A stretch of DNA of 52,964 nucleotides, taken from Clostridiaceae bacterium (GTDB lineage Bacteria > Bacillota > Clostridia > Acetivibrionales > DUMC01). This document shows positions 1-36,148 of this stretch, one piece after another. Position numbers and translations under genes: made by a program. The DNA lies in assembly GCA_012840075.1 (NCBI GenBank), contig DUMC01000103.1, positions 1 to 52,964 on the forward strand, written 5' to 3'. The notes beneath the pieces were generated by a model. It saw only the letters and a list, made by a program, of their open reading frames with translations, was not told the origin of the DNA and did no database searches. The stretch's first letter is position 1, and each line of letters starts with the position of its first letter.

Positions 1-243
1 ACCATTGAATTATTTGATGTTAATAATGATATTCTGGCAGATATTAAAAGCATGCCTCATATTGTTTCTGCCGAATTTAAAGATAATATACTCCTTGTAA
101 AATCCACAAGAGGTAAAAACAATCTTGCTGTAATACTCGATTATCTTAAGTCAAAGAATATTGCTTTTGGAAAGATTTATTCAGAACCGCCTACGCTAAA
201 TGACGTTTTCCTTGAAATAACCGGTAAAGACTTGAGAGACTAG
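1..243 (+). CDS. ABC transporter ATP-binding protein, C-terminal fragment (5' end outside window)
   Basis: The reading frame is open from base 1 to the TAG at 241-243, so this is the last 80 residues of a gene that begins upstream of the window. The closing stretch PTLNDVFLEITGKDLRD matches the usual tail of ABC-2 type export ATPases, where a P-[ST]-L-x-D-V-F-L motif ends the regulatory domain. The Walker motifs lie outside the window. Two ABC-2 permeases follow 57 bp downstream on the same strand, so it most likely supplies the ATPase of that exporter, for drugs, peptides or lipids. The substrate cannot be told. An internal ATG at 52 is not the true start. Confidence 0.8.
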   Translation, partial: TIELFDVNNDILADIKSMPHIVSAEFKDNILLVKSTRGKNNLAVILDYLKSKNIAFGKIYSEPPTLNDVFLEITGKDLRD

Positions 244-299
244 GGCTTAGAGCAGAGCTTGAATCTCGAAATTATGGGATTGGAGGTAAAGTTAAAAAC

Positions 300-1517
300 A
301 TGTTTAAGCATATTTATATATATAGGCTAAAATGCATATTAAGAGATAAACAGTTACTATTCTGGACGCTGTTATTCCCCATATTATTGGGGTTGATGTT
401 CATCATGGCATTTTCAAATTTATTGAGCAGCGAATTATTTTCTGAAATTAAAATTGCTGTCGTGGATAATGAAGAATATAGGAAAAATCGCAGCTTCCAA
501 GCTGCATTATCCTCGGTTTCCGACAGTTCTAATTTTGATTTTGATTCCGATTCTGATACTGATGCTGATTCTGATTTTGACAGCTTTGCTTACAGATCGG
601 ACGAAGTAAAACTTTTTGATGTTACCTATACATCTCAAGAAGAAGCTGAAAACTTGCTTAAAAACGGCAAGATCGCAGGCTATATCTATTTTGATAAGGA
701 TATGAAACTTGTTGTTAAAAAATCCGGTGGTTTACAGCAGACTATAATAAAAAAATTCCTGGATGACTACCTGCAGACAACATCTACAATTTACAGGATT
801 ATAATTAAGGAGCCGTCTGCCGTTCAAAAAGGACTTTTTAATATCGTTTACAACAGAATAAACTTTATTGAAGATGTTCCTGTCGGCAAGGCTTTTCCCA
901 ATACTACAGTGCATTACTTTTATACATTAATAGCTATGGCCTGCCTTTATGGAGGTTTCTGGGGATTAAAAGAAGTAACGGCGATTCAAGCAAACCTATC
1001 TTCCCAAGCTGCAAGAGTAAATTTGGCTCCAACCCATAAATTGAAGGTTTTCTTTATTTCAGTTCTTGCCGCAGTTACAATACAGCTTTCTATAATATTT
1101 ATTTTACTTCTGTTCTTGGTTTTTATCTTGAAAGTTGATTTCGGCAATCAGATAGGGTATATAATTTTAACTTGCATAGTAGGTACATTTACAGGTGTAA
1201 CCTTCGGAACTTTTATTGCATCAATTGTAAAAAAAGGTGAAGGTGTAAAAATAGGTGTACTGATAGGTGCTTCCATGACAATGTCCTTTCTTGCAGGAAT
1301 GATGCACGCAAACATGAAAATAATTGTAAATACCAAGGTGCCACTGCTGGGATATATTAATCCTGCAAATCTACTATCTGATGCCTTCTACTCATTATAT
1401 TTTTATGACACTTATACACGTTTTTTTATAAATATAGCCTTACTATGCTGTTTAACGGTTGTTTTCAGCTTAATCACTTATTTAGCTCTAAGGAGGCAAA
1501 AATATGCTAGTATATAA
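300..1517 (+). CDS. ABC-2 type transporter permease, first subunit
   Basis: This 405-residue membrane protein has the ABC-2/YhgE-like layout: one N-terminal helix (about residues 20-42), a large outside domain (45-200), then five or six helices to the C terminus. A GGAGG lies 13 bp before the ATG, rather far but the best option. It follows the ATPase fragment and overlaps the next permease by 14 bp, so the three should form one export complex. Residues about 78-98 are an Asp/Ser/Phe-rich run (FDFDSDSDTDADSDFDSF) encoded by a tandem GAT-TCT-type repeat inside the extracellular domain. This looks like a later insertion. Substrate unknown. Confidence 0.85.
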   Translation: MFKHIYIYRLKCILRDKQLLFWTLLFPILLGLMFIMAFSNLLSSELFSEIKIAVVDNEEYRKNRSFQAALSSVSDSSNFDFDSDSDTDADSDFDSFAYRSDEVKLFDVTYTSQEEAENLLKNGKIAGYIYFDKDMKLVVKKSGGLQQTIIKKFLDDYLQTTSTIYRIIIKEPSAVQKGLFNIVYNRINFIEDVPVGKAFPNTTVHYFYTLIAMACLYGGFWGLKEVTAIQANLSSQAARVNLAPTHKLKVFFISVLAAVTIQLSIIFILLLFLVFILKVDFGNQIGYIILTCIVGTFTGVTFGTFIASIVKKGEGVKIGVLIGASMTMSFLAGMMHANMKIIVNTKVPLLGYINPANLLSDAFYSLYFYDTYTRFFINIALLCCLTVVFSLITYLALRRQKYASI

Positions 1518-2667
1518 AGCTTTTTTCAAGATAATCTATAAGAACTTGCCGGAAATTTTAATATATGTTTTAGTCTTTTTATTCCTTGCAATTTTTTTAA
1601 GTTCCACATATAGTAGCACTCAAAGTACGGACTTTACGGAAACAAAAATTAACATTGCCTTTATAAACCAGGATAAAGACTCAATGCTTGTAAACGGATT
1701 AAAGAGTTATTTGGAAAAAAACGCAAATATTATTTATACTGAGGGTGATGGTAAAAATTTGCAGGATGCTTTATTTTTCAGACAAATAGAATATATTTTA
1801 AAAGTACCGGAAGGTTTTTCAGAAAGTATACTGAAGGAAAAAATAATAAAACTTCAAAGAACTGCAGTACCTGACTCAACAGGAAGCGTATATATCGACT
1901 CCCTTGTCAATAAATATCTCAATACTGCCGTTCTTTACATTAAAAACTTAAGAAATATCACAGAAGATCAATTGATATCTTATATTGAAGAAGATTTAAC
2001 AAATGAGACCCAGGTTTACGTGAATAATTTTGGTAACCGGACTTCAAACGGTAATGTAGTATATTACTTTAATTACTTGGCCTATTCCATACAAGCCAGT
2101 TTAATTCTGGGAGTATGCGCCGTAATGTTGGTTTACAATAACATCGATATAAAAAGGAGAAACCTCTGTTCTCCCTTAAAACCAAAATATATGAACTTTC
2201 AAATGATTCTTGGGAATCTAAGTTTTGCCGTTTTATGCTGGTTAATATTAATTAGTGCAAGTTTATTCATCCATGGGGAATATATGATTACGTCAAATGG
2301 ATTACTGCTTTTGCTAAACTCATTTATTTTCACTATTGCGTCATTAAGTTTAAGCTTCCTGCTTGCAAACATTGTAAAAAGCAGGAATGCCATGTCCGGT
2401 GCTGCAAATGTTTTCGCCCTTGGTAGCTGTTTTATCAGCGGAGTTTTTGTTCCCCAAGAATTTCTGGGTAAACAGGTGTTGGATATAGCCGCTTTTACCC
2501 CGACTTTTTGGTATGTTAAAGCCAACAACCTGATTGTCGGTATGACAAACTTCAATTCTGAAAACCTTATTCCGGTTATTAACTGTATGCTCATTGTTAT
2601 GGGATTTGCAATTGCATTGTTATCTGTCTCTCTGGTAATAATTAAGCAAAGAAGGGTCAACACATAA
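1504..2667 (+). CDS. ABC-2 type transporter permease, second subunit
   Basis: A 387-residue paralogue of the preceding permease with the same plan: N-terminal helix (about 12-32), a soluble loop domain, then a C-terminal bundle of five to six helices. The segment ISGVFVPQEFLG near residue 315 resembles the conserved SG.f.P...lP region of ABC-2 membrane proteins. The start is well supported by AAGGAGG seven bases before the ATG, and it lies inside the end of the upstream gene, which indicates translational coupling. It probably forms a heterodimer with the upstream permease. A hairpin with a T tract follows directly. Confidence 0.85.
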   Translation: MLVYKAFFKIIYKNLPEILIYVLVFLFLAIFLSSTYSSTQSTDFTETKINIAFINQDKDSMLVNGLKSYLEKNANIIYTEGDGKNLQDALFFRQIEYILKVPEGFSESILKEKIIKLQRTAVPDSTGSVYIDSLVNKYLNTAVLYIKNLRNITEDQLISYIEEDLTNETQVYVNNFGNRTSNGNVVYYFNYLAYSIQASLILGVCAVMLVYNNIDIKRRNLCSPLKPKYMNFQMILGNLSFAVLCWLILISASLFIHGEYMITSNGLLLLLNSFIFTIASLSLSFLLANIVKSRNAMSGAANVFALGSCFISGVFVPQEFLGKQVLDIAAFTPTFWYVKANNLIVGMTNFNSENLIPVINCMLIVMGFAIALLSVSLVIIKQRRVNT

Positions 2668-22133: not shown

Positions 22134-24320
22134 TTACTTAACCCATTTTCTTGGATCCCCGTTTGATGTTGTATTACGTTTAAGGGTATTCAAATAGTCA
22201 CTTCTTTCTTCATTTCCATATGGGATTCTGAAAAACACACCCATATTACCTTTTGTCTTAGGTCCTACAGGTGATAATAAAGGCACTCCGAAAGATTTAA
22301 TATTACATAGCGAACCAATAATAAGGAAAAGTCCTAAGGAAATACCGTAAAATCCGGCTAATCCTGCAAGGACGATTAATGCAAATCTTAAAATTCTTAT
22401 GCTAAAACCTAATGCAAAATCCGGAGCTGTATAATTTCCAAGTCCTGTTACAGCAACAACAATTATTAGTATAGGGCTTACTATGCCTGCTGCTACAGCC
22501 GCTTGTCCAAGTATCAGAGCTCCAATAATCCCCAAGGTTGTTCCGATTATTCCCGGGACCCTTACTCCTGCTTCACGAATTAACTCAAAAGACAACTCCA
22601 TCAATACCGTTTCTATCAGAACCGGAAAAGGAACATTTTCCCTTGATTGAGCTATAGCTATTAACAAATCTGTCGGAATCATCTCCTGGTGATATAATGT
22701 CAAAGCAATATAAAAACTTGGCAATGTTACTGAAATCAAAAGTCCGATTGCCCTTATATTTCTTAAAACCGTTGCGAACTGCCATTTCATATTCGCATCT
22801 TCAGAAGATTGAATCATATGGAAAAAACTCATAGGAACTGCAATTATAAAAGGAGTTCCGTCCGCAACTATTACTACTTTTCCACTCATTAAAAAGGATG
22901 CTGCCCTATCCGGCCGTTCCGTCCTCAATACCTGGGGAAAAATCATGAAAGGTCTGTCTTCTATTAGCTGCTCCAGCATTCCCTCTCCACTTACAAAATC
23001 AATATCAAGACTGGCTATTCTTTTTTTTACTTCGTTTACAACTTTTGGATTAGTTAAACCTTCAATATATAATATACCGCAGTGGGAATTATTTTCCCTT
23101 CCAACAGGTACAATTTCCGTAACCAAACGGTTGTTTTTTACTATGCGCCTGATCAAGGTGATGTTTGTCCTCAGATTTTCATTAAATCCTTCCTGAGAAC
23201 CCTTGATAACATTTTCTGTAACCGGCTTTTCCACACTTCTCTTTTCATAACCCCTCGTTTCAAAAATTAAAGCCCTGTCACAGCCATCCACAAATAAGAC
23301 GGTAAGACCGTTTAATATCTGCCTTATTATCATTTCAAAATGATTTTCTCTCTTAGTATCATGTACAGCCAGCACATTTTCTTCAATATATTCAATTAGA
23401 TCATTTTGCGTATCTGCATTCTCAAAAAGGTTTGGCATCATTAACTGGCGCAGTATATAATTGTTTATGGTTTCCCTGTCCACCATACCGTCGATGAAAA
23501 CAATAAAAGCCTTATGCTTTTTAGCAACCATAAACTGCCTAATAACAATGTCGGAATTTTTATGTGTAACAAATTCTTCTTGAATTTTTTTCAGATTAAC
23601 TTCCAGTTTTTCATTTACTTCTTTTATATTGACAATATCTTCATCTTTTGCAACATCTTCTTTTTTCGATGAACCTTTTCCGGAATTTTTTCCGCCGGAA
23701 TTTTTTCCGGATGATAAATCTTTCTCATCTCCTTTTTCTTCATTACTGCAGTCTTTTTTGTCGTCTTTTTTGTTCTTTTCATTTTTCTTCTTTCCTGATT
23801 CAGCGTTTCCATCAGCGTTTTTATCAGCATTTTTATCTGTGTGTTTATCATCGTTCTTATCATCGTTTTTTTCATCTTTTTTTTCATCGGTCTTTTCAGC
23901 TTTATCGCTTTCATCATTTTTATCGCTTTTTTCTTTTTTGTCCTTTTTTGCTTCTTTTTTCGCTTCATTCCATTCTTCTATTTTCAACGGAGTCTTAGTC
24001 TTCATATTTTTGCTGTTTTCATTGTGTTGTTTTTTTTCTTTGTCATTTTCTTTATTACTTTTGCCGTTTTCTTCACCGTTTTCTTCGTCTTGATGTGTCT
24101 GACCTTGTGTTCCGCCTTGTTTCTGGTTTTGTCCTTGTTTTTTTCCCTGGTTCTGTTCGTGATTTTGTTCTTTGTTTTGTTCTTGACTTTGCTTTAAATC
24201 TTCTTCAAAACCGTCTCTGTCCGTACCCTCATACTCGGTTTCAAGTAATTCAAACTCATCCTTTCTTTTAGGTTCATGATAAACCAAATATTTTTTTAAG
24301 ATATTCATCACGTTATTCAT
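22134..24320 (-). CDS. GerA family spore germination protein (receptor A subunit) with long charged N terminus
   Basis: About 728 residues. The C-terminal 480 are a GerA domain: a soluble part (EVNEKLEVNLKKIQEEF onward) and a membrane part with helices at IGLLISVTLPSFYIALTLYH, VPGIIGTTLGIIGALILG and beyond, and PFLIAVPMSF-like segments. Typical A subunits are 480-560 residues. The first 240 residues here are extremely charged and repetitive, rich in K, D, E, N, Q, S and G, with runs such as KNDDKNDDKHTDKNADKNAD, and lie on the cytoplasmic side. The ATG at 24320 is nine bases after AAGGG. The A subunit, together with B and C, forms the inner-membrane nutrient receptor that triggers germination. 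Confidence 0.9.
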   Translation of the reverse strand: MNNVMNILKKYLVYHEPKRKDEFELLETEYEGTDRDGFEEDLKQSQEQNKEQNHEQNQGKKQGQNQKQGGTQGQTHQDEENGEENGKSNKENDKEKKQHNENSKNMKTKTPLKIEEWNEAKKEAKKDKKEKSDKNDESDKAEKTDEKKDEKNDDKNDDKHTDKNADKNADGNAESGKKKNEKNKKDDKKDCSNEEKGDEKDLSSGKNSGGKNSGKGSSKKEDVAKDEDIVNIKEVNEKLEVNLKKIQEEFVTHKNSDIVIRQFMVAKKHKAFIVFIDGMVDRETINNYILRQLMMPNLFENADTQNDLIEYIEENVLAVHDTKRENHFEMIIRQILNGLTVLFVDGCDRALIFETRGYEKRSVEKPVTENVIKGSQEGFNENLRTNITLIRRIVKNNRLVTEIVPVGRENNSHCGILYIEGLTNPKVVNEVKKRIASLDIDFVSGEGMLEQLIEDRPFMIFPQVLRTERPDRAASFLMSGKVVIVADGTPFIIAVPMSFFHMIQSSEDANMKWQFATVLRNIRAIGLLISVTLPSFYIALTLYHQEMIPTDLLIAIAQSRENVPFPVLIETVLMELSFELIREAGVRVPGIIGTTLGIIGALILGQAAVAAGIVSPILIIVVAVTGLGNYTAPDFALGFSIRILRFALIVLAGLAGFYGISLGLFLIIGSLCNIKSFGVPLLSPVGPKTKGNMGVFFRIPYGNEERSDYLNTLKRNTTSNGDPRKWVK

Positions 24321-27558: not shown

Positions 27559-28605
27559 ATGTATGAAAATATATTCAATCAAATAAGAAGAGAATACGAA
27601 GAAAAACAAAAAATTGCCCGAGAAAAACTAATAAAGAAAAAACAGGAACTGGCCGAAAAACTACCTGAAATAATAGAAATTGAGAATAAAATCCATACAA
27701 CCGGATTAGCATACAGCAAACTTATCCTAGCAGGAAAAAACAGTTCCGATGCGGAAGTTTTATCTTTGCTTGAGGATATTGAAAAGCTGAAGGAGCAAAA
27801 AAAGAACTTACTTTTATCCAACGGATATCCTGCTAATTATTTGGAGCCCGAATATAGCTGCCAGGCATGCAAAGACACAGGTTTTATAAATAATAACGGT
27901 TATACTGAAAAATGCTCTTGTTATAAACAACAATTAATAAATTATTTATACCATCAGTCCAATATGGAACTGGTGAAAACCGAAAATTTCGATAATTTTA
28001 ATGAAAACTATTATCCGGATGTAGTAGATGAGGAAAAATACGGCATAAAAATTTCTCCAAGAGAAAACATCATTAAAATAAAAAACCGTTGTCTTAGATT
28101 CTTGCAAAATTTTGATAAACCTGAGGAGAAAAACTTATTTTTCAGCGGCCCTCCAGGTGTAGGGAAAACCTTTATGGCAAGCTGCATAGCCAAGGAACTC
28201 TTGGACCGTGGAAAAACGGTTCTTTACCAAACATCACCTGTGCTATTTAACATTATTAATGAATACAAGTATAATTTTTCAAAGGATGAATACTACAGTG
28301 ATGTCGGATATCGCAACATATTTGAAGTAGAACTGCTTATAATAGACGACCTGGGCATTGAACCACCAACTCCGGCCAGATACGCAGAATTATTAACTAT
28401 CTTAAACATAAGACAGATAAATAACCTCACAAGACCATGCAAAACAATAATATCCACAAATATCGGACCTAGGCAATTGTATGAATATTATACGGAAAGG
28501 GTAGCTTCCAGAATAATCGGCAATTTCGACATGCTAAAATTCGCAGGAGAAGATATCCGCCTATTGAAAAGGCAAATGAGACAGGGGGACGGTTCTCTTG
28601 TCTAA
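27559..28605 (+). CDS. DnaC/DnaI-like helicase loader ATPase
   Basis: A 348-residue AAA+ ATPase. The N terminus is a coiled coil, then CQACKDTGFI...CSCYK (about residues 100-120) forms a likely four-cysteine zinc site as in DnaI. Walker A GPPGVGKT is near residue 196, Walker B LLIIDDLGIEP near 258, sensor-1 IISTNIG near 296 and ERVASRIIGNF near 313. It loads the replicative helicase, working with the DnaD-like protein encoded just upstream. The last nine residues (MRQGDGSLV) and the stop are contributed by the first unit of the repeat array that begins at 28580, so the natural C terminus seems to have been replaced. Confidence 0.88.
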   Translation: MYENIFNQIRREYEEKQKIAREKLIKKKQELAEKLPEIIEIENKIHTTGLAYSKLILAGKNSSDAEVLSLLEDIEKLKEQKKNLLLSNGYPANYLEPEYSCQACKDTGFINNNGYTEKCSCYKQQLINYLYHQSNMELVKTENFDNFNENYYPDVVDEEKYGIKISPRENIIKIKNRCLRFLQNFDKPEEKNLFFSGPPGVGKTFMASCIAKELLDRGKTVLYQTSPVLFNIINEYKYNFSKDEYYSDVGYRNIFEVELLIIDDLGIEPPTPARYAELLTILNIRQINNLTRPCKTIISTNIGPRQLYEYYTERVASRIIGNFDMLKFAGEDIRLLKRQMRQGDGSLV

Positions 28606-28722
28606 GACAGGGGGACGGTTCTTTCGTCTTTTTTGGAGTTAGACTTGGATTATTCACTTCAGTTTGAGACAAAGGGACGGTTCTCTTGTCTTTTAATGAG
28701 ACAAAGGGATGGTTCTCTTGTC
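28580..28722 (+). repeat. REP-like 23-bp hairpin repeats, left block (4 units)
   Basis: Units at 28580-28602, 28606-28628, 28668-28690 and 28700-28722 follow the pattern GACA[GA]GGGGA, a CGG-type centre, then TTCTCTTGTC. As RNA from this strand each folds to a 10-bp hairpin that uses several G-U pairs; the other strand cannot fold as well. The first unit lies within the dnaC-like gene. Facing copies occur at 28921-29091. Confidence 0.85.
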
Positions 28723-28756
28723 TTTTATAGAGTTAGCTTTTGATTATTTCTCCAGT

Positions 28757-28905
28757 TAATGGGGTCAATTTTGAATTATTCACAGTGGTTAATATTCACA
28801 TTGGTAATAATGCCAATAACAAGTTTGAAGCAAATAATGAGGCCAAGTTTGAATTATTTATTTCGGTGAATGAGGACAAGCAAATTATTCAAGCTTGACC
28901 CTATT
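28757..28905. repeat. Second repeat family with GGGTCAA / TTGACCC ends
   Basis: Between the two hairpin blocks GGGGTCAATTTTGAATTATT near 28759 faces ATTATTCAAGCTTGACCC near 28886-28904, with TTATTCAC and GGTGAATGAG further inside. This is a long imperfect inverted repeat, and its GGGGTCA ends are like the palindrome at 6622-6641. No coding frame is evident. Confidence 0.5.
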
Positions 28906-28920
28906 TGTGATCCCATTTAA

Positions 28921-29091
28921 GACACAAGAACCGTCCCCATGTCTCACAGACAAGAGAACCGTCCCCATGTCTCACACAGACAAGAGAACCGTCCCCATGT
29001 CTCACAGACAAGAGAACCGTCCCCCTGTCTTACATACAGACAAGAGAACCGTCCCCCTGTCTTACACAGACAAGAGAACCGTCCCCCTGTC
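28921..29091 (-). repeat. REP-like 23-bp hairpin repeats, right block (6 units, inverted)
   Basis: Six units at 28921-28943, 28949-28971, 28979-29001, 29007-29029, 29039-29061 and 29069-29091, spaced by 5, 7, 5, 9 and 7 bp, are the reverse complement of the left block: GACAAGAGAA, CCG, then TCCCC[AC][TC]GTC. A broken seventh tail, CCCCTGTCTTACATA, runs into the end of ypeB and gives that gene its TAA. The spacers are CTCACA- or TTACA-like. The unit resembles dispersed repeats of many Clostridia. Confidence 0.85.
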
Positions 29092-29102
29092 TTACCCCTG
29101 TC

Positions 29103-30497
29103 TTACATAGTTAAAATACCATTAGGTGTGTTAATTATTAAAAGTATGTCCTCTTCCTTGCCGGTCATGGCATTTATATATACAATAAAGTCTTGATTGT
29201 TGAATCTGCCTTTAAACTCATAAGTTAACAGTTCAGTATTATAATTAGTCGGTATTATAGCTAAGCCTGCACTGCTAATTTCTATTTTTTTATTGATTTT
29301 TGCTCTTGCTTCTTCCATGGTAATTTTAGGAGTTTCAATTTCTCTTTCTCTATGACAGGTTAAATAGCCCTTTGTTTCGAATCCTACAATTTCTCCCGTA
29401 TCTAACGCAATTTTCACTTTTATTAGGTCAGGATATACGATAACATCTCCCTGTTTATAAGCATAATTGATAACAGCGGTTCCATCTTCACTTAAATAGT
29501 AAGTATCCTGCATATTTTTAAAACCGTGTTTCTCTAAGAACTCCTTGCATATTCTTTTTGCTTCCTCTATGCCAATATCTTTATCCTGGCTGACGGGTCT
29601 GTTATAAAGCATCCAATAAGGATGGCCTCCCTTTTGCGTAAAATCAACGGAAGCAGTCTGTTCTTCAGGAGCTCCTTTAAATCTCACAGTAAAACTATAA
29701 GTCTTAATAGGACCGGAATCGTTTCTACCCGTTGATTCCACAGATTCTACCTTATCTTTTCCGAAAAATTCAATAACCTTCTGTTTAACAGCTTCAACAT
29801 CCATTTCCTCACCGGTAAGTCCTTTAGGCTGGATATCTGAAAGGTGATCCGAAAAAGGTCCGTCATATATAAGTGTTGGATAATCTTGAAATGTTTTTTC
29901 CACATTTTCAAATTGTTGATCCGTCATATTTGCTGATGTTCTTTGAAATATGCTTGGTCCTTTTCTGGACAGTTCTCCCCATTTCAGCCTGCCATCTGCC
30001 AATTCCTGCTGTAGCTTTTCAAGGCTTTTCCCAAGTGCGGTAGCATACCCATGGAGATCTTCCAGAGTATTAAACTCTTTTTCTGATAACTGTTCTCCAT
30101 TCAAGCATTTATTATTTACCGAATATGAAAAATCACCTACCTGAGCTAAAAATTTTGAAGTATTTGCAAGTATATTTTGTGAAACAGGTAATTGTCCCAA
30201 GTAAGCTTGAGCAAAGTTAGCCTGTCTCCAAGCTTCCTGCAAGGTAGCCGCTGTTTTTTGGGGTGTAGATGTTATCAACGATTTAACTAGCAAAGTCTCT
30301 ACGTTATTCACATACCCTATCATTTCATAAAAAGCCCTATTGTATTGATTATCAAGCTTCTGCCTCAATCTGGCAGCATTTTGATATTGGTAAATTCCCC
30401 AGCCGGCCACTACGGCAAGAGTAACAATAACAATACTGTACATTTTTCTGTCGCTGAGCCTACGTTTAAAATCCAATAATTTTTCCCTGATCCCCAA
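29103..30497 (-). CDS. ypeB: Germination protein YpeB
   Basis: A 464-residue protein with an N-terminal membrane anchor (YSIVIVTLAVVAGWGIYQYQ, about residues 19-38), a helical domain and C-terminal PepSY-like repeats (FTVRFKGAPEEQTASVDF and INYAYKQGDVIVYPDL near the end). YpeB is needed to keep SleB stable and located in the spore. The start is TTG at 30497, with GGAGGTG before it. Its gene follows sleB at a 97-bp gap on the same strand, the classical pair. The stop codon lies in DNA that looks like the tail of the REP array, but the protein is of normal length, so little or nothing is missing. Confidence 0.92.
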   Translation of the reverse strand: MGIREKLLDFKRRLSDRKMYSIVIVTLAVVAGWGIYQYQNAARLRQKLDNQYNRAFYEMIGYVNNVETLLVKSLITSTPQKTAATLQEAWRQANFAQAYLGQLPVSQNILANTSKFLAQVGDFSYSVNNKCLNGEQLSEKEFNTLEDLHGYATALGKSLEKLQQELADGRLKWGELSRKGPSIFQRTSANMTDQQFENVEKTFQDYPTLIYDGPFSDHLSDIQPKGLTGEEMDVEAVKQKVIEFFGKDKVESVESTGRNDSGPIKTYSFTVRFKGAPEEQTASVDFTQKGGHPYWMLYNRPVSQDKDIGIEEAKRICKEFLEKHGFKNMQDTYYLSEDGTAVINYAYKQGDVIVYPDLIKVKIALDTGEIVGFETKGYLTCHREREIETPKITMEEARAKINKKIEISSAGLAIIPTNYNTELLTYEFKGRFNNQDFIVYINAMTGKEEDILLIINTPNGILTM

Positions 30498-31920: not shown

Positions 31921-34752
31921 CTACGGCAGAATTATCAGATTTAAATTATTCCCAAATACTTGTTTTGCAATCTCAACTTCCCTCTTTTTGCAAGTGAATA
32001 GGAATATCTGGCGTTCTTCCGACAGCTCCCTGAACAAATTCAAAGTTTTTTCAATCCTGCTGTCATCATATTGGGCAAATACTTCATCCATTATGATAGG
32101 GAGATTTTCGCCATCCGGTGAAAAAATATCCGATAATGCCAGTCTGAAAGCTAAATAAATTTGATCCACGGTACCCTTACTAAGGTGGCCTACATGTACT
32201 ATCTTTGACGTGTCAGAATCCAGAATCATTAACTCTAATTCATCATTAGCACGCAAATCATAATACTTGCCATTTGTCATTTTGCTGATATAAAAGCTCA
32301 TCCTCTCGTTTAAAGTCGGTAAATATTTCTTTTTTATCTCTTCACTTGCAATAGTAAGAACTTCCAAAGCTTTATTCAGGGAAAACTTAAGTTTTAACAG
32401 GTTATCCCTTTTTTCTTCCAGTTCAAGTATACTTTCAACTATCTTCTGCAGCTTATAATTATCAAAACCCGATGTTGCGATTATAGTTTCATATTCTTTT
32501 ATATTTAAACTTAACTTGTACATATTTTCTTCAAGAGCCGCTCTATACTTTATGATATCAGCTTCAACAGCGCTTATTTTTTCTTTAATATTATAAATAT
32601 TGCAATCACGATTGATTCTCTTATTATCTTTAATACTATAATTAAAATTAATTCTATGTATAATATCTATAATATTTTTAAGCCATTGATAATCATCATT
32701 CTGTCCAACCTTTGAATCGCCGTTCCATTTAATCTTGGAATCGTCATCTTCTCTAATATTAAAACCGTCATTCCCTTCAATCTTAGAATTATCATTCTGT
32801 CCAATCTTATAATCATTGTTCCACTCAATCTTAGAATTATCATTCTGTTCAATCATGTAATTATCCTTCCACTCAACATTGGGCTTAATGCTTTGTTCCA
32901 CCCCAATGTCCCCTTCGTCTTTCACGTTTTCTTCGTTTTTTTCAAAAACGTTGATAATCTTTTTCTTAATTGTCCTAACTAATCCCTCAGCATCATTTAT
33001 AAGATAAGTATTTTGAGTTTGTATTTCATCTATTTCTTTTTCTATACTTTCAACTATTCTTTTCAATTTGACCACAACATCTCTTTCACAATCTTCAAAC
33101 TCAACATTACTGCCCGTGAGAGCGGAAATCCTCTTAGTTATATACTCTATTGTATGAGATAAATTAACATTTAAAGCTTTAATTTGCTCTAACTTATCCC
33201 TTATAAGGTTAAACTGTTCTTCCAATTTGTTTTTTCTATCTGAAATACTCTTAATTGATCCTGCCAAGGTTCTTTTATAAATAAACAAGATTATGGAAAT
33301 TATTAGTAACATTATATCAAAAGTACCAAGGACAGTTCTAAGCAAATTATCACTGCCAAAAATATTTCTATTGCTAAACAGATTATTGCTAAAAATGCCC
33401 TTTATATTGTCTATGCTTAAGTTAAAGTTTAACGCCGTGTTTAAGTTTAATATAACAAATAGGGCAAAAGATATAATTAGAGCGGTTAAAGCCATTAAAA
33501 ACGAAGAATCAATAATTCTTTTGTTTTTCTGCCTTTTTTCATATTCTTTGTTAAGTTTCGCTATTTCTTCCTCATATTTTTCGTATTCACGGTTTAACTC
33601 ATAAACATTAAGATTAAATATATCATTAATGAGGTTCGATTCGTCTTTATTCTTATCATCGATCTGCTGTTTAAATTCATCATTGCTCTCGTCATTGATA
33701 TGCTGATTAAATTCATCTTCATTTCGCATGTTAAATTCATTATTACTTAATAGATTACATTCATCATTATTTAGCGGATTAAATTTATAATCTTTTTGTT
33801 GACTAAATCCATCATCATTATCATTTAGTTTAGATTCATAATCATTCTGATGACCCATAATCGCATTCATAATCGGACTCATATTAGTTTTACAATCATC
33901 TTTTAAAAATGTCCTAAATTTTTTTAACAAATCATCTTTTATCTCCTCGAGCTCTTTACGAACTTTTTCATTTTCATTTACAATCTTAATAATATCGATT
34001 ATCTCCGTGATACCGCTTATTAATTCTTTTTGCTTTTTATAATTTTCCAGTAAAATTACTGAATTCCTGAGCTTTTCTTCAATTTCAAGAATCATAGACC
34101 TTTTATTTTCCAATTCCTTTAATTCATCTCTCAGTTCTTTAAGCCTGTCATTTATTTTGTCTAAAGGGCGGGATGACGATTTTTCAGTACCTACATATGT
34201 TAATAAAGCATCCTTAAGAGCTTTTTCAGCTCTCTTGAAGGATATGTTATCAAAACCTGATTCGCTAATATTGATAAGTTTACTCAAAACTTCTTGTTTA
34301 CCGTTTCCTTCAACTTTAACATCCATCTGCTTTATGAAAACACTTTTTTCAAAGCAAACTTCATTCAAACCAAAATGCGCTTCCGCAAACCTAACAGATT
34401 TATCCTTGGAGATTTCGAAAGTATTTGTAATATCATTAAAGGAAGAATCAAGAATCTTAACAGTGCTGTTAAAAAAATCCCTGATGACGGTGTATATATT
34501 ATTTCCAATTGAATATTCAATAAGACCGCCGTAATTTTTGAAATTCCAAGGAATGAAACGTTTTAGCGGAGGTAATACTCCGTCTTTTTCTCTTCCTCCC
34601 TTCAGCCCGTAAAACATTCCCTTTACAAACCATTGAATCGTAGACTTTCCTGCTTCATTATTGCCGTATATAATATTAAAACCTTTTGCAGGTTTAATTT
34701 CCAAATTTCCTATTTTCCCAAAACCATTAATAACGATTTTTTTAATAATCAC
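31921..34752 (-). CDS. yhaN: YhaN-like SbcC/SMC-type ATPase with central membrane helices
   Basis: About 943 residues. The N terminus has IVINGFGKIGNLEIKPAKGF and Walker A GNNEAGKST; the C terminus has the ABC signature-like HLSKGTVDQIYLAFRLAL and Walker B LPIIMDEVFAQYDD. Between them lie long coiled coils but no C-x-x-C zinc hook; instead two hydrophobic segments (LMALTALIISFALFVILNL near 420 and TFDIMLLIISIILFIYK near 490) would put the coiled-coil apex in the membrane. The length matches B. subtilis YhaN. Two low-complexity inserts occur, one with a 16-residue repeat (QNDNSKIEWNNDYKIG-like). I chose GTG 34752, overlapping yhaO by 11 bp, over the earlier TTG 34785. Confidence 0.82.
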   Translation of the reverse strand: MIIKKIVINGFGKIGNLEIKPAKGFNIIYGNNEAGKSTIQWFVKGMFYGLKGGREKDGVLPPLKRFIPWNFKNYGGLIEYSIGNNIYTVIRDFFNSTVKILDSSFNDITNTFEISKDKSVRFAEAHFGLNEVCFEKSVFIKQMDVKVEGNGKQEVLSKLINISESGFDNISFKRAEKALKDALLTYVGTEKSSSRPLDKINDRLKELRDELKELENKRSMILEIEEKLRNSVILLENYKKQKELISGITEIIDIIKIVNENEKVRKELEEIKDDLLKKFRTFLKDDCKTNMSPIMNAIMGHQNDYESKLNDNDDGFSQQKDYKFNPLNNDECNLLSNNEFNMRNEDEFNQHINDESNDEFKQQIDDKNKDESNLINDIFNLNVYELNREYEKYEEEIAKLNKEYEKRQKNKRIIDSSFLMALTALIISFALFVILNLNTALNFNLSIDNIKGIFSNNLFSNRNIFGSDNLLRTVLGTFDIMLLIISIILFIYKRTLAGSIKSISDRKNKLEEQFNLIRDKLEQIKALNVNLSHTIEYITKRISALTGSNVEFEDCERDVVVKLKRIVESIEKEIDEIQTQNTYLINDAEGLVRTIKKKIINVFEKNEENVKDEGDIGVEQSIKPNVEWKDNYMIEQNDNSKIEWNNDYKIGQNDNSKIEGNDGFNIREDDDSKIKWNGDSKVGQNDDYQWLKNIIDIIHRINFNYSIKDNKRINRDCNIYNIKEKISAVEADIIKYRAALEENMYKLSLNIKEYETIIATSGFDNYKLQKIVESILELEEKRDNLLKLKFSLNKALEVLTIASEEIKKKYLPTLNERMSFYISKMTNGKYYDLRANDELELMILDSDTSKIVHVGHLSKGTVDQIYLAFRLALSDIFSPDGENLPIIMDEVFAQYDDSRIEKTLNLFRELSEERQIFLFTCKKREVEIAKQVFGNNLNLIILP

Positions 34753-36148
34753 TAATATCAACCTGTCCTTTTTCCATTGCTTCAAGACCGTAATAAAGAG
34801 ATTTTAATAAAAGCTCTTTTTCTTCGTTGTCTTGCGTTGAATTTACCAAATCCAAAATCTTTCTAACAAACAAACCTTTTAGTCCAAAATCTCTTTTTAT
34901 TTCATCAAAATCGTAATCACGCCTTGTTTTATTTTTAATTTTAGCAAAAAAGAATATATCGTTAAAATAGGAAGAAATATACTTGATATCCGGAGAAAAG
35001 TCCGGGCTTATATATCCCATAAGTGATATATTCACTAGTAAATTCTGATAAGTTTTAGGCTTAATGCAATCGCTTCCGAATTTTATACCTGTATTGCCAA
35101 ATTTTATATCGTCATCGTCATCGTTGAGCTTTTTATCGTCATTGTTAATTTTTATCCCTAAGTTATCGTTGTTTAAAATTTCCTTAATTTTACTATTTAA
35201 ACTTTCCTTAATTTTTTCAATTATCTCTTCATCAGTCATGCACCCGGTAATATTTACTTCTAAATCCAGGTATTCCTTTCTATTTCCAGGGATAAATTCA
35301 ATCTCCAGCTTTTTATTTCCCATATCGTCTATTGAAATGCTCCCAAAATAAAATCCATGCTGTCCGGGTTCATCGAATCCCAAAGGTTCAGGGCTCCCAG
35401 GATTATATGCGTTTTCAAGACCTGCTACCTTGTCAATTCTATTGTGGAAATGCCCAATTCCTATATAATCCATGTTTATAGAAGCAAGAATTTCAACTGA
35501 TATTGGATTATAGCTGTTTTTGTCAAAATCGAAGCCAACAGAACCGTGTAAAAGGAGAATATTTATTTTATCCTTATCAGTGGATTTGATATAGTTAACG
35601 GATTCTCTTTTATAGTTAACGGATTCATCTTTCTTTAAATGCTCATGCTCTTCATCTTTATAACCATCTTCATAACCCTCTTTATAATCTTTATAATCTT
35701 TTTTATAACCTTTAAGTTTATAACCTTCAAGAAAAGCTTGTCCGTAAATGCAAACATTCTTTTCTTCATTTTCTTCAAAAGACAGGAAAGGATCGGTTAA
35801 AATATGTACATTTTCAGCCCAATTGAAGCTTTTGTAATAGGAACCTTCAACCCACGGATCATGGTTCCCCGGTATTATAATTACCTTTGTATCGTGTATT
35901 TTTTTAAAAGACTCATTAAGAAAATAAATAGTGGATTTTGTAACATAGTTATGTTCGTATAAATCGCCGGTTATAAATAAAAAATCCACTTGTTCTTTCT
36001 GCGCGAACCTTATTATATTTTCAAAAACCATTTTTAAATCAAGCCTTCTTAGAGAAGACTTGTCATTTTTTTCACTTAAAGTACAGAGAGATGAAAATGG
36101 AGCATCCAGATGCAAATCAGCACAGTGAATGAATTTTATTTTCCTCAA
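34742..36148 (-). CDS. yhaO: YhaO-like SbcD-type DNA repair phosphoesterase
   Basis: A 468-residue calcineurin-like phosphoesterase. The metal motifs are FIHCADLHLDAPF (D-x-H), FITGDLYEH (G-D), IPGNHDPW (G-N-H-D), LLHGSVG and IGIGHFHN (G-H). B. subtilis YhaO is near 410 residues. The extra length comes from two inserts: KGYKKDYKDYKEGYEDGYKD with flanks (residues about 155-205) and a D/N-rich GIKINNDDKKLNDDDDDIKF (about 335-360). It is probably a nuclease subunit that works with the YhaN-like ATPase, as in the Mre11/Rad50 pair. TTG at 36148 follows GGAGGAGAG. It lies 6 bp after acpS. Confidence 0.85.
   Translation of the reverse strand: MRKIKFIHCADLHLDAPFSSLCTLSEKNDKSSLRRLDLKMVFENIIRFAQKEQVDFLFITGDLYEHNYVTKSTIYFLNESFKKIHDTKVIIIPGNHDPWVEGSYYKSFNWAENVHILTDPFLSFEENEEKNVCIYGQAFLEGYKLKGYKKDYKDYKEGYEDGYKDEEHEHLKKDESVNYKRESVNYIKSTDKDKINILLLHGSVGFDFDKNSYNPISVEILASINMDYIGIGHFHNRIDKVAGLENAYNPGSPEPLGFDEPGQHGFYFGSISIDDMGNKKLEIEFIPGNRKEYLDLEVNITGCMTDEEIIEKIKESLNSKIKEILNNDNLGIKINNDDKKLNDDDDDIKFGNTGIKFGSDCIKPKTYQNLLVNISLMGYISPDFSPDIKYISSYFNDIFFFAKIKNKTRRDYDFDEIKRDFGLKGLFVRKILDLVNSTQDNEEKELLLKSLYYGLEAMEKGQVDISDY

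Follow-up and report, generated by a model that had tools for sequence, protein, structure and literature searches.

Between a dnaC-like gene and ypeB in a Clostridiaceae bacterium (GTDB order Acetivibrionales; GenBank assembly GCA_012840075.1) lie two facing arrays of short hairpin repeats, and they raise the question of where such repeats come from and how they came to reach the ends of both genes. The locus is found in contig DUMC01000103.1, of which positions 1 to 52,964 were analysed (hereafter the window). The region is very probably a cluster resembling a BIME (bacterial interspersed mosaic element), built from a non-autonomous mobile hairpin repeat that is tied to a Y1 (HuH) transposase of the RAYT type (REP-associated tyrosine transposase; REP, repetitive extragenic palindrome).

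The repeated unit is a 25-nt sequence, AGACANGGGGACGGTTCTYTTGTCT, present in ten copies between 28579 and 29092, four on the plus strand and six on the minus strand, together with a truncated eleventh. The original prediction of ten facing units, four in one orientation and six in the other, agrees with this arrangement; its 23-bp hairpin has to be corrected, as copies aligned from the own genome have a length of exactly 25 nt with sharp edges and form a hairpin of up to 11 pairs with a 3-nt loop. The flanks in the same alignment are close to random, a weak T two bases upstream being the one exception. The units fill the intergenic gap, with the plus units adjoining the dnaC-like gene and the minus units adjoining ypeB, as follows:

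27559..28605, plus strand: dnaC-like gene, the last 8 residues (RQGDGSLV) from unit 1 and the stop TAA where units 1 and 2 meet
28579..28603, plus strand: unit 1 (AGACAGGGGGACGGTTCTCTTGTCT)
28605..28629, plus strand: unit 2, its first A completing the dnaC TAA and its last T opening a run of six T
28667..28691, plus strand: unit 3
28699..28723, plus strand: unit 4, with one core mismatch
28762..28901, strand not applicable: spacer between the arrays, with a second interspersed repeat, GGGTCAANTTTGAATTATT, in inverted copies at its edges
28920..28944, minus strand: unit 5
28948..28972, minus strand: unit 6
28978..29002, minus strand: unit 7
29006..29030, minus strand: unit 8
29038..29062, minus strand: unit 9
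29068..29092, minus strand: unit 10
29095..29105, minus strand: truncated unit AGACAGGGG (29095-29103) plus flank TA, between unit 10 and ypeB
29103..30497, minus strand: ypeB, whose C-terminus and stop agree in position with all 29 relatives examined

When at most 3 mismatches are allowed, the core of the unit matches 11 times in the window compared with 1.34 expected, and none of 100 shuffles gets to 11. One of these matches, at 35533 with 3 mismatches, is probably due to chance.

A count of the unit across the genome, called for in the original prediction, reveals a dispersed family. In the 3.78 Mb (193 contigs) of the own genome there are 150 exact core matches, 73 on the plus and 77 on the minus strand, and the reversed pattern has none; a core shortened by one base gives 257 matches at 2 mismatches versus 80 for the control. 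The exact core was found in 13 of the 60 genomes searched (own included), reaching other families of the order, and the second highest number was the 59 copies of genome G048. Units per site range from one to ten.

The units are not placed at random with respect to each other or to genes. Contexts in the own genome were read in 45 loci (44 stretches and the window), with open reading frames (ORFs) called mechanically at a length of at least 120 amino acids, and at least 150 for background ORFs. When units at most 400 nt apart are grouped, 19 of 49 clusters in the own genome are convergent and none is divergent (p = 4e-6), and the corresponding numbers in G048 are 14 and none of 44 (p = 1e-4). 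Plus units precede minus units in every two-strand cluster among the loci examined. The sense of the unit also follows that of the gene upstream, with 50 co-oriented, 11 opposite and 7 without an ORF in the own genome (p = 5e-7) and 6 co-oriented, none opposite and one without an ORF in G012.

The link to a REP-associated tyrosine transposase, which had been suspected beforehand, is borne out by units found beside such genes in three genomes. Exact units end 47 nt upstream of RAYT ORFs in G048 (contig C95) and G009 (contig C32). An inverted unit in G048 starts within the TGA stop codon of the transposase itself, and no unit was found downstream of the RAYT in G009. A search with the G048 enzyme identified the C-terminal half of a RAYT in the own genome, cut by the contig end (G000:C79:3778-4164; L139 1576-1965, minus strand), with two inverted units just downstream. 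The best match of this fragment among 18 RAYTs is the G048 enzyme, with 47% identity over 129 amino acids. The Y1_Tnp search of the own genome presumably missed the fragment because the domain lies beyond the contig end; it rendered one intact gene (L034) and two remnants, none adjoining a unit. The remnants (L035 and L036) have no core at up to 3 mismatches and no match with any of the 18 RAYT queries. About 2 kb from its intact cognate transposase gene, G048 has a further, degenerate copy that is 83-84% identical and interrupted by stops (G048:C95:7722-8098).

Repeats of the same kind accompany RAYT genes throughout the order. Thirty RAYT loci were taken from a longer set of matches, of which four gave no readable ORF. 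A plus-strand core is located within 300 nt upstream of 18 of the 26 readable ORFs, a minus-strand core downstream of 13 and both of these in 12, compared with 4 matches in 66 control loci totalling 298,463 bp. The upstream cores of L240 and L241 have no matching stem and look like chance matches, and 16 to 18 of the 26 RAYTs carry sibling repeats with the same core and other stems. In NCBIfam the G048 enzyme scores above the cut-off as a REP-associated tyrosine transposase, and NF047646 is matched above the cut-off by L048 and below it by L034. PF01797 is above the cut-off in seven of eight proteins, the eighth being the C-terminal fragment of the own genome, which is without that part, and among solved structures TnpA-REP (PDB 4er8) alone was found at E 0.01. 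The RAYTs are 245 to 326 amino acids long with a Y---NP signature (YIHNNP and similar), and weak, sub-cut-off matches that might point to a C-terminal extension resembling a helix-turn-helix were found in three of the eight proteins (HTH_23 E 0.015, HTH_31 E 0.01, Bac_DnaA_C E 0.029).

The stems vary by transposase (AGACA..TGTCT, GAGTC..GACTC, GAAGC..GCTTC, GAACAG..CTGTTC and others), and they do so with pairing kept. The alignment omits one of the 18 RAYT-linked repeats (L234), includes unit 1 of the window and retains L240 and L241. The repeats on the RAYT side were found through their core, which is therefore invariant in this alignment by construction, but this does not apply to the covariation of the stem. 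Two-sided covariation was found in 33 cells compared with 11.6 after shuffling, a number that none of 500 shuffles reaches, and slid structures give 7 to 17.

Comparison with known systems shows that the family is REP/BIME-like, tagless and close to the TIRYT type. REP, BIME and REPIN sequences in Escherichia and Pseudomonas are likewise short palindromes in high copy number, found in inverted pairs or arrays and at gene 3' ends, with an own repeat for each transposase and sometimes with TAG stops; a REPIN is an inverted REP doublet according to Bertels and Rainey (2011, PMC3116915). The present family is a dispersed 25-nt palindrome in high copy number, with inverted pairs, mosaic clusters and a linked RAYT gene, and the arrays of the window interleave with a second repeat, a mosaic as in BIME. 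It differs in that the flank profile contains no 5' GTAG/GTGG or CGTC tag and in that the apical core is common whereas the outer stem is variable. In PMC8266576, TnpA-REP is described as recognising GTAG and the hairpin.

REPs lie mostly behind genes, often less than 20 bp from the 3' end, and GTAG REPs often supply a TAG stop to flanking ORFs, as stated by Di Nocera et al. (2013, PMC3733652). The same text describes RAYT-like enzymes (TIRYTs) flanked by inverted repeats (TIRs), some with GGGGWSAS, in place of GTAG REPs, these repeats being in part self-complementary and in part repeated through the genome, many as dimers or clusters. The TIRYT/TIRtron systems resemble the present family in the RAYT-like Y1 transposase, the flanking inverted G-rich repeats without GTAG and the clusters or dimers in the genome. 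The core here, GGGGACGG, is however one position off GGGGWSAS, the hosts are Clostridia, and the stems change compensatorily between transposases. The sequence GGGGACAG occurs near some other Y1 genes.

Twenty of 26 TIRYT examples are placed in subclass 2.1 of TnpA-REP (RAYT group 1) by Quentin et al. (2018, PMC6006769). The RAYTs found here resemble that subclass in being long Y1 proteins with Y---NP and a possible C-terminal extension resembling a helix-turn-helix, and these features suggest that they may belong to it. In contrast to the hairpin repeats at 16 to 18 of 26 RAYTs here, that survey, whose authors equate the subclass with TIRYTs, reports nothing REP-like in the vicinity of subclass 2.1 genes, whether the search was automatic or manual. 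The Rickettsia palindromic elements (RPE) and REPs within genes are also palindromic repeats translated as part of proteins, but the present repeats mostly form C-terminal tails. The core GGGACGGTTCT occurs in seven open papers, none of which deals with bacterial repeats as judged by title; two open papers on TIRYTs were found, and none on REPIN with RAYT in Firmicutes.

The literature on IS200/IS605 and RAYT points to how the units might spread. Most likely the Y1 transposase would recognise the hairpin in single-stranded DNA and insert copies, with a preferred site including T or TR before the join, as every stop codon provides where non-coding DNA begins. Copies are located mostly at gene 3' ends, in the sense of the gene and very often starting within the stop codon, where the first A of the unit (TGA, TAA) or its AG (TAG) completes the codon and leaves the protein untouched. 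Between convergent genes, plus units are thus placed behind one gene and minus units behind the other, and tandem duplication might then lengthen each side of the array. All three frames through the unit consensus are open, and thus a unit landing just upstream of or inside a stop adds a short tail, such as RQGDGSLV in DnaC. The units may also affect the mRNA.

Docking of units on stop codons is a clear statistical case in this family. Among 50 gene ends, defined by first units with a co-oriented ORF just upstream, the AGACA of the unit starts inside the stop codon in 27, compared with none of 87 background ORFs (Fisher 4e-15), and the A or AG of the docked unit constitutes the last base or bases of TGA, TAA or TAG. 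The docked cases comprise 12 full units, 12 truncated units, which were judged from three or four letters after the stop, and 3 next units after a read-through first unit, with dnaC among the latter. The stop is TAG in 17 of the 27 docked cases compared with 18 of the 87 background ORFs (p = 8e-5). Provision of stop codons by repeats is known in kind, but no description was found, in the open papers searched, of such a family in which it is this frequent and precise, nor of the linked stem covariation.

It is possible, as a tentative reading, that the stop codon itself is the integration site, where the Y1 transposase joins the repeat after T or TR in the sense strand and the unit rebuilds the stop. 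A rather unlikely alternative is survivorship, in which insertion occurs anywhere near gene 3' ends and only those copies persist that keep or restore the stop. The latter is consistent with units at many other distances from stops and with the appearance of the docked proteins: of the 12 whose stop is docked by a full unit, six were tested (GalK, WhiA, DAHP synthase, alpha-galactosidase, Hsp18-like and Gnd), and all six look full length. The end of Gnd coincides with that of 7 of 12 relatives, including the two nearest (with TAA and TAG), the five more distant relatives being shorter. The other five proteins reach the end of the NCBIfam profile or come within two positions of it, the Hsp18 match being below the NCBIfam cut-off; the C-terminus of WhiA is variable in relatives and does not settle the question of full length. 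However, an insertion at any offset from 0 to +5 behind the stop should be equally harmless, yet only 3 full units start there compared with 12 at offsets -2 and -1 (binomial 1e-5). Because of this peak, mere tolerance of harmless insertions does not explain docking.

The arrays could instead be kept because they act as terminators or as 3'-end hairpins on the mRNAs of dnaC and ypeB, so that their orientation reflects RNA function and not mobility, but this is unlikely. The units are co-oriented with the upstream gene and fold better in the sense strand, as had been predicted: the sense RNA of the seven units folded reaches -6.4 to -11.5 kcal/mol compared with -2.0 to -4.5 in the opposite sense, because the stem contains G-U pairs (the three remaining units are identical in sequence to two of the seven). 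There are also five terminator-like patterns in 28300-29400 compared with 0.8 in shuffles, unit 2 runs out into six T, and according to work cited in the RepRanger paper (PMC12306157), REPs of E. coli that lie no more than 15 nt from a stop codon reduce translation and are said to stall ribosomes. Three of the terminator-like patterns, those within the arrays, nevertheless pair parts of neighbouring units across the junctions and have tails such as GGTTCTTTCG instead of T runs; units 3 and 4 end in four T, and no unit other than unit 2 has more than four. The number of units per site varies from one to ten, and no Rfam family was found at gathering score, only sub-threshold matches. Unit 2 has the weakest fold, no better than many shuffles (z -1.05, 31/200), and the four units folded with DNA parameters give weak hairpins of -2.1 to -3.3 in sense. 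The whole 530-nt region has a predicted fold of -243 and -256 kcal/mol on the two strands (z -16.5 and -17.2 versus shuffles), and by this prediction a hypothetical transcript crossing the region would form the long duplex that had been proposed for it.

Short tandem duplications are clearly present at the locus. The sequence TAAGACAGGGG (minus strand, 29095-29105) is the truncated copy with its flank, and an 11-nt tandem duplication at ypeB, spanning 29084-29106, copies the start of unit 10 together with its flank. Duplication of a short flank with the 5' arm recurs elsewhere, the two copies of TAAGACAGGGG at ypeB being one example, and a copy of AGACA starts 6 to 14 nt upstream of 30 of 140 units (20 of these at 10 to 12 nt), of which a few may be due to chance. 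Chance or a purely local tandem repeat formed by slippage, without mobile origin, would fit these duplications but is refuted by 150 exact cores over many contigs, exact cores in other families of the order and cores beside transposases.

Several observations weigh against a mobile repeat served by a RAYT. No complete cognate transposase was found in the own assembly, where the C79 fragment could be a dead gene. The intact Y1 gene L034 (1024-1968, minus strand, 314 amino acids) was rejected as the cognate, since it falls in a different RAYT group and has degenerate GGGACATTTCTT repeats on its flanks instead of a unit of the window type. The first 21 Y1 loci comprised 2 with an exact unit, 6 with a near-core and 13 with no core (full core with at most 3 mismatches, within 600 nt), and Y1_Tnp occurs in 45 of the 60 genomes, the own included, with or without the unit, so that presence of the domain alone predicts nothing. 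The classical REP tag, GTAG or CGTC, is absent from the unit as judged by the flank profile. Two further measures of covariation are weak, with 7 pairs changed on both sides compared with 5.6 after shuffling (reached by 91 of 500 shuffles) and 19 further pair types compared with 14.6 (reached by 15 of 500). The bias in orientation is weaker in G048, with 35 co-oriented, 16 opposite and 7 without an ORF (p = 0.01), and so is docking, which was found in 6 of 35 cases, many units there standing 3 to 11 nt past the stop. In addition, no co-oriented ORF lies within range upstream of 19 of the 69 first units, and the contexts in the own genome are those around the first 100 listed of the 150 exact matches. 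No empty-site pair was found that would document the proposed insertion.

The repeats have not affected the two neighbouring genes in the same way. The original prediction assigned the last nine residues of the dnaC product and the stop to unit 1. The tail RQGDGSLV does lie wholly within unit 1, but it consists of eight residues, and the TAA straddles the junction, with the last T of unit 1, one spacer A and the first A of unit 2. DnaC ends in EDIRLLKRQMRQGDGSLV here (EDIRLLKRQM-RQGDGSLV) compared with EDIRTIRK and EDIRAIKRR in two relatives of the same family. The conserved EDIR-type motif is followed by 14 residues here, just beyond the natural range of 3 to 13 found in 33 of 37 relatives (the motif was not found in the other four), and the extension by the repeat is modest because the tails of relatives already span 3 to 13 residues.

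The ends of YpeB were read in 30 loci, one from the own genome and 29 from relatives, out of 57 genomes in which a match was found. The protein ends in TPNG[IV]LT[MI], and all 29 relatives stop at this residue, 14 of them with TAA, 13 with TAG and 2 with TGA, with TAA in both relatives of the same family. Of the TAA at 29103-29105, which the repeat had been proposed to supply, only the last A belongs to the truncated unit. Shared C-termini in relatives had been named in advance as the sign of an unchanged gene. Since all 29 relatives have the same end, the repeat changed nothing in YpeB. The suggested invasion of both gene ends therefore holds for DnaC, where the end is encoded by the repeat when compared with relatives, but not for the YpeB protein.

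Other C-terminal tails encoded by the repeat were found in a ClpB-like ATPase ending in MRQGDGSSVSN (L006 1-1524, plus strand), a Clp-type ATPase ending in RQRDGSLVS (L165 1-1554, plus strand) and a further protein ending in RQGDGSSVR (L137 1880-3130, plus strand); the first two proteins run off the edge of their loci. In L149, three units, two plus and one minus, are clustered at 1531-1606 inside an open frame of 722 codons (2-2170, plus strand), where the units may be translated within the protein. Contigs C65, C115 and C121 start in or near repeat units and C79 ends in the transposase fragment, which suggests that the repeats break the assembly at contig ends.

The second repeat, GGGTCAANTTTGAATTATT, is unrelated to the unit and has 24 copies in the genome at up to 2 mismatches, three of them in the window, compared with none for the reversed control. 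Its inverted copies at 28762-28901 resemble a miniature element of 140 bp, and partial copies related to it alternate with units 2 to 4. Tandem repeats are also found in the window at 32691-32876 (24-48 nt, inside a long open frame) and at 23800-23900 (12-24 nt).

These results add, for Clostridia, a large family of hairpin repeats that are linked to transposases. If the enzymes are of subclass 2.1, the repeats belong to transposases for which the published survey (PMC6006769) had found no REP-like neighbours. Such a repeat can spare one neighbouring protein, as in YpeB, and lengthen another, as in DnaC and in Clp-type ATPases elsewhere in the genome. Docking makes the target choice of these poorly understood transposases testable. 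If the stop codon is the integration site, the repeat would be able to spread through an AT-rich genome without breaking genes, and a hairpin folding only in the sense strand behind the stop of each target could slow termination.

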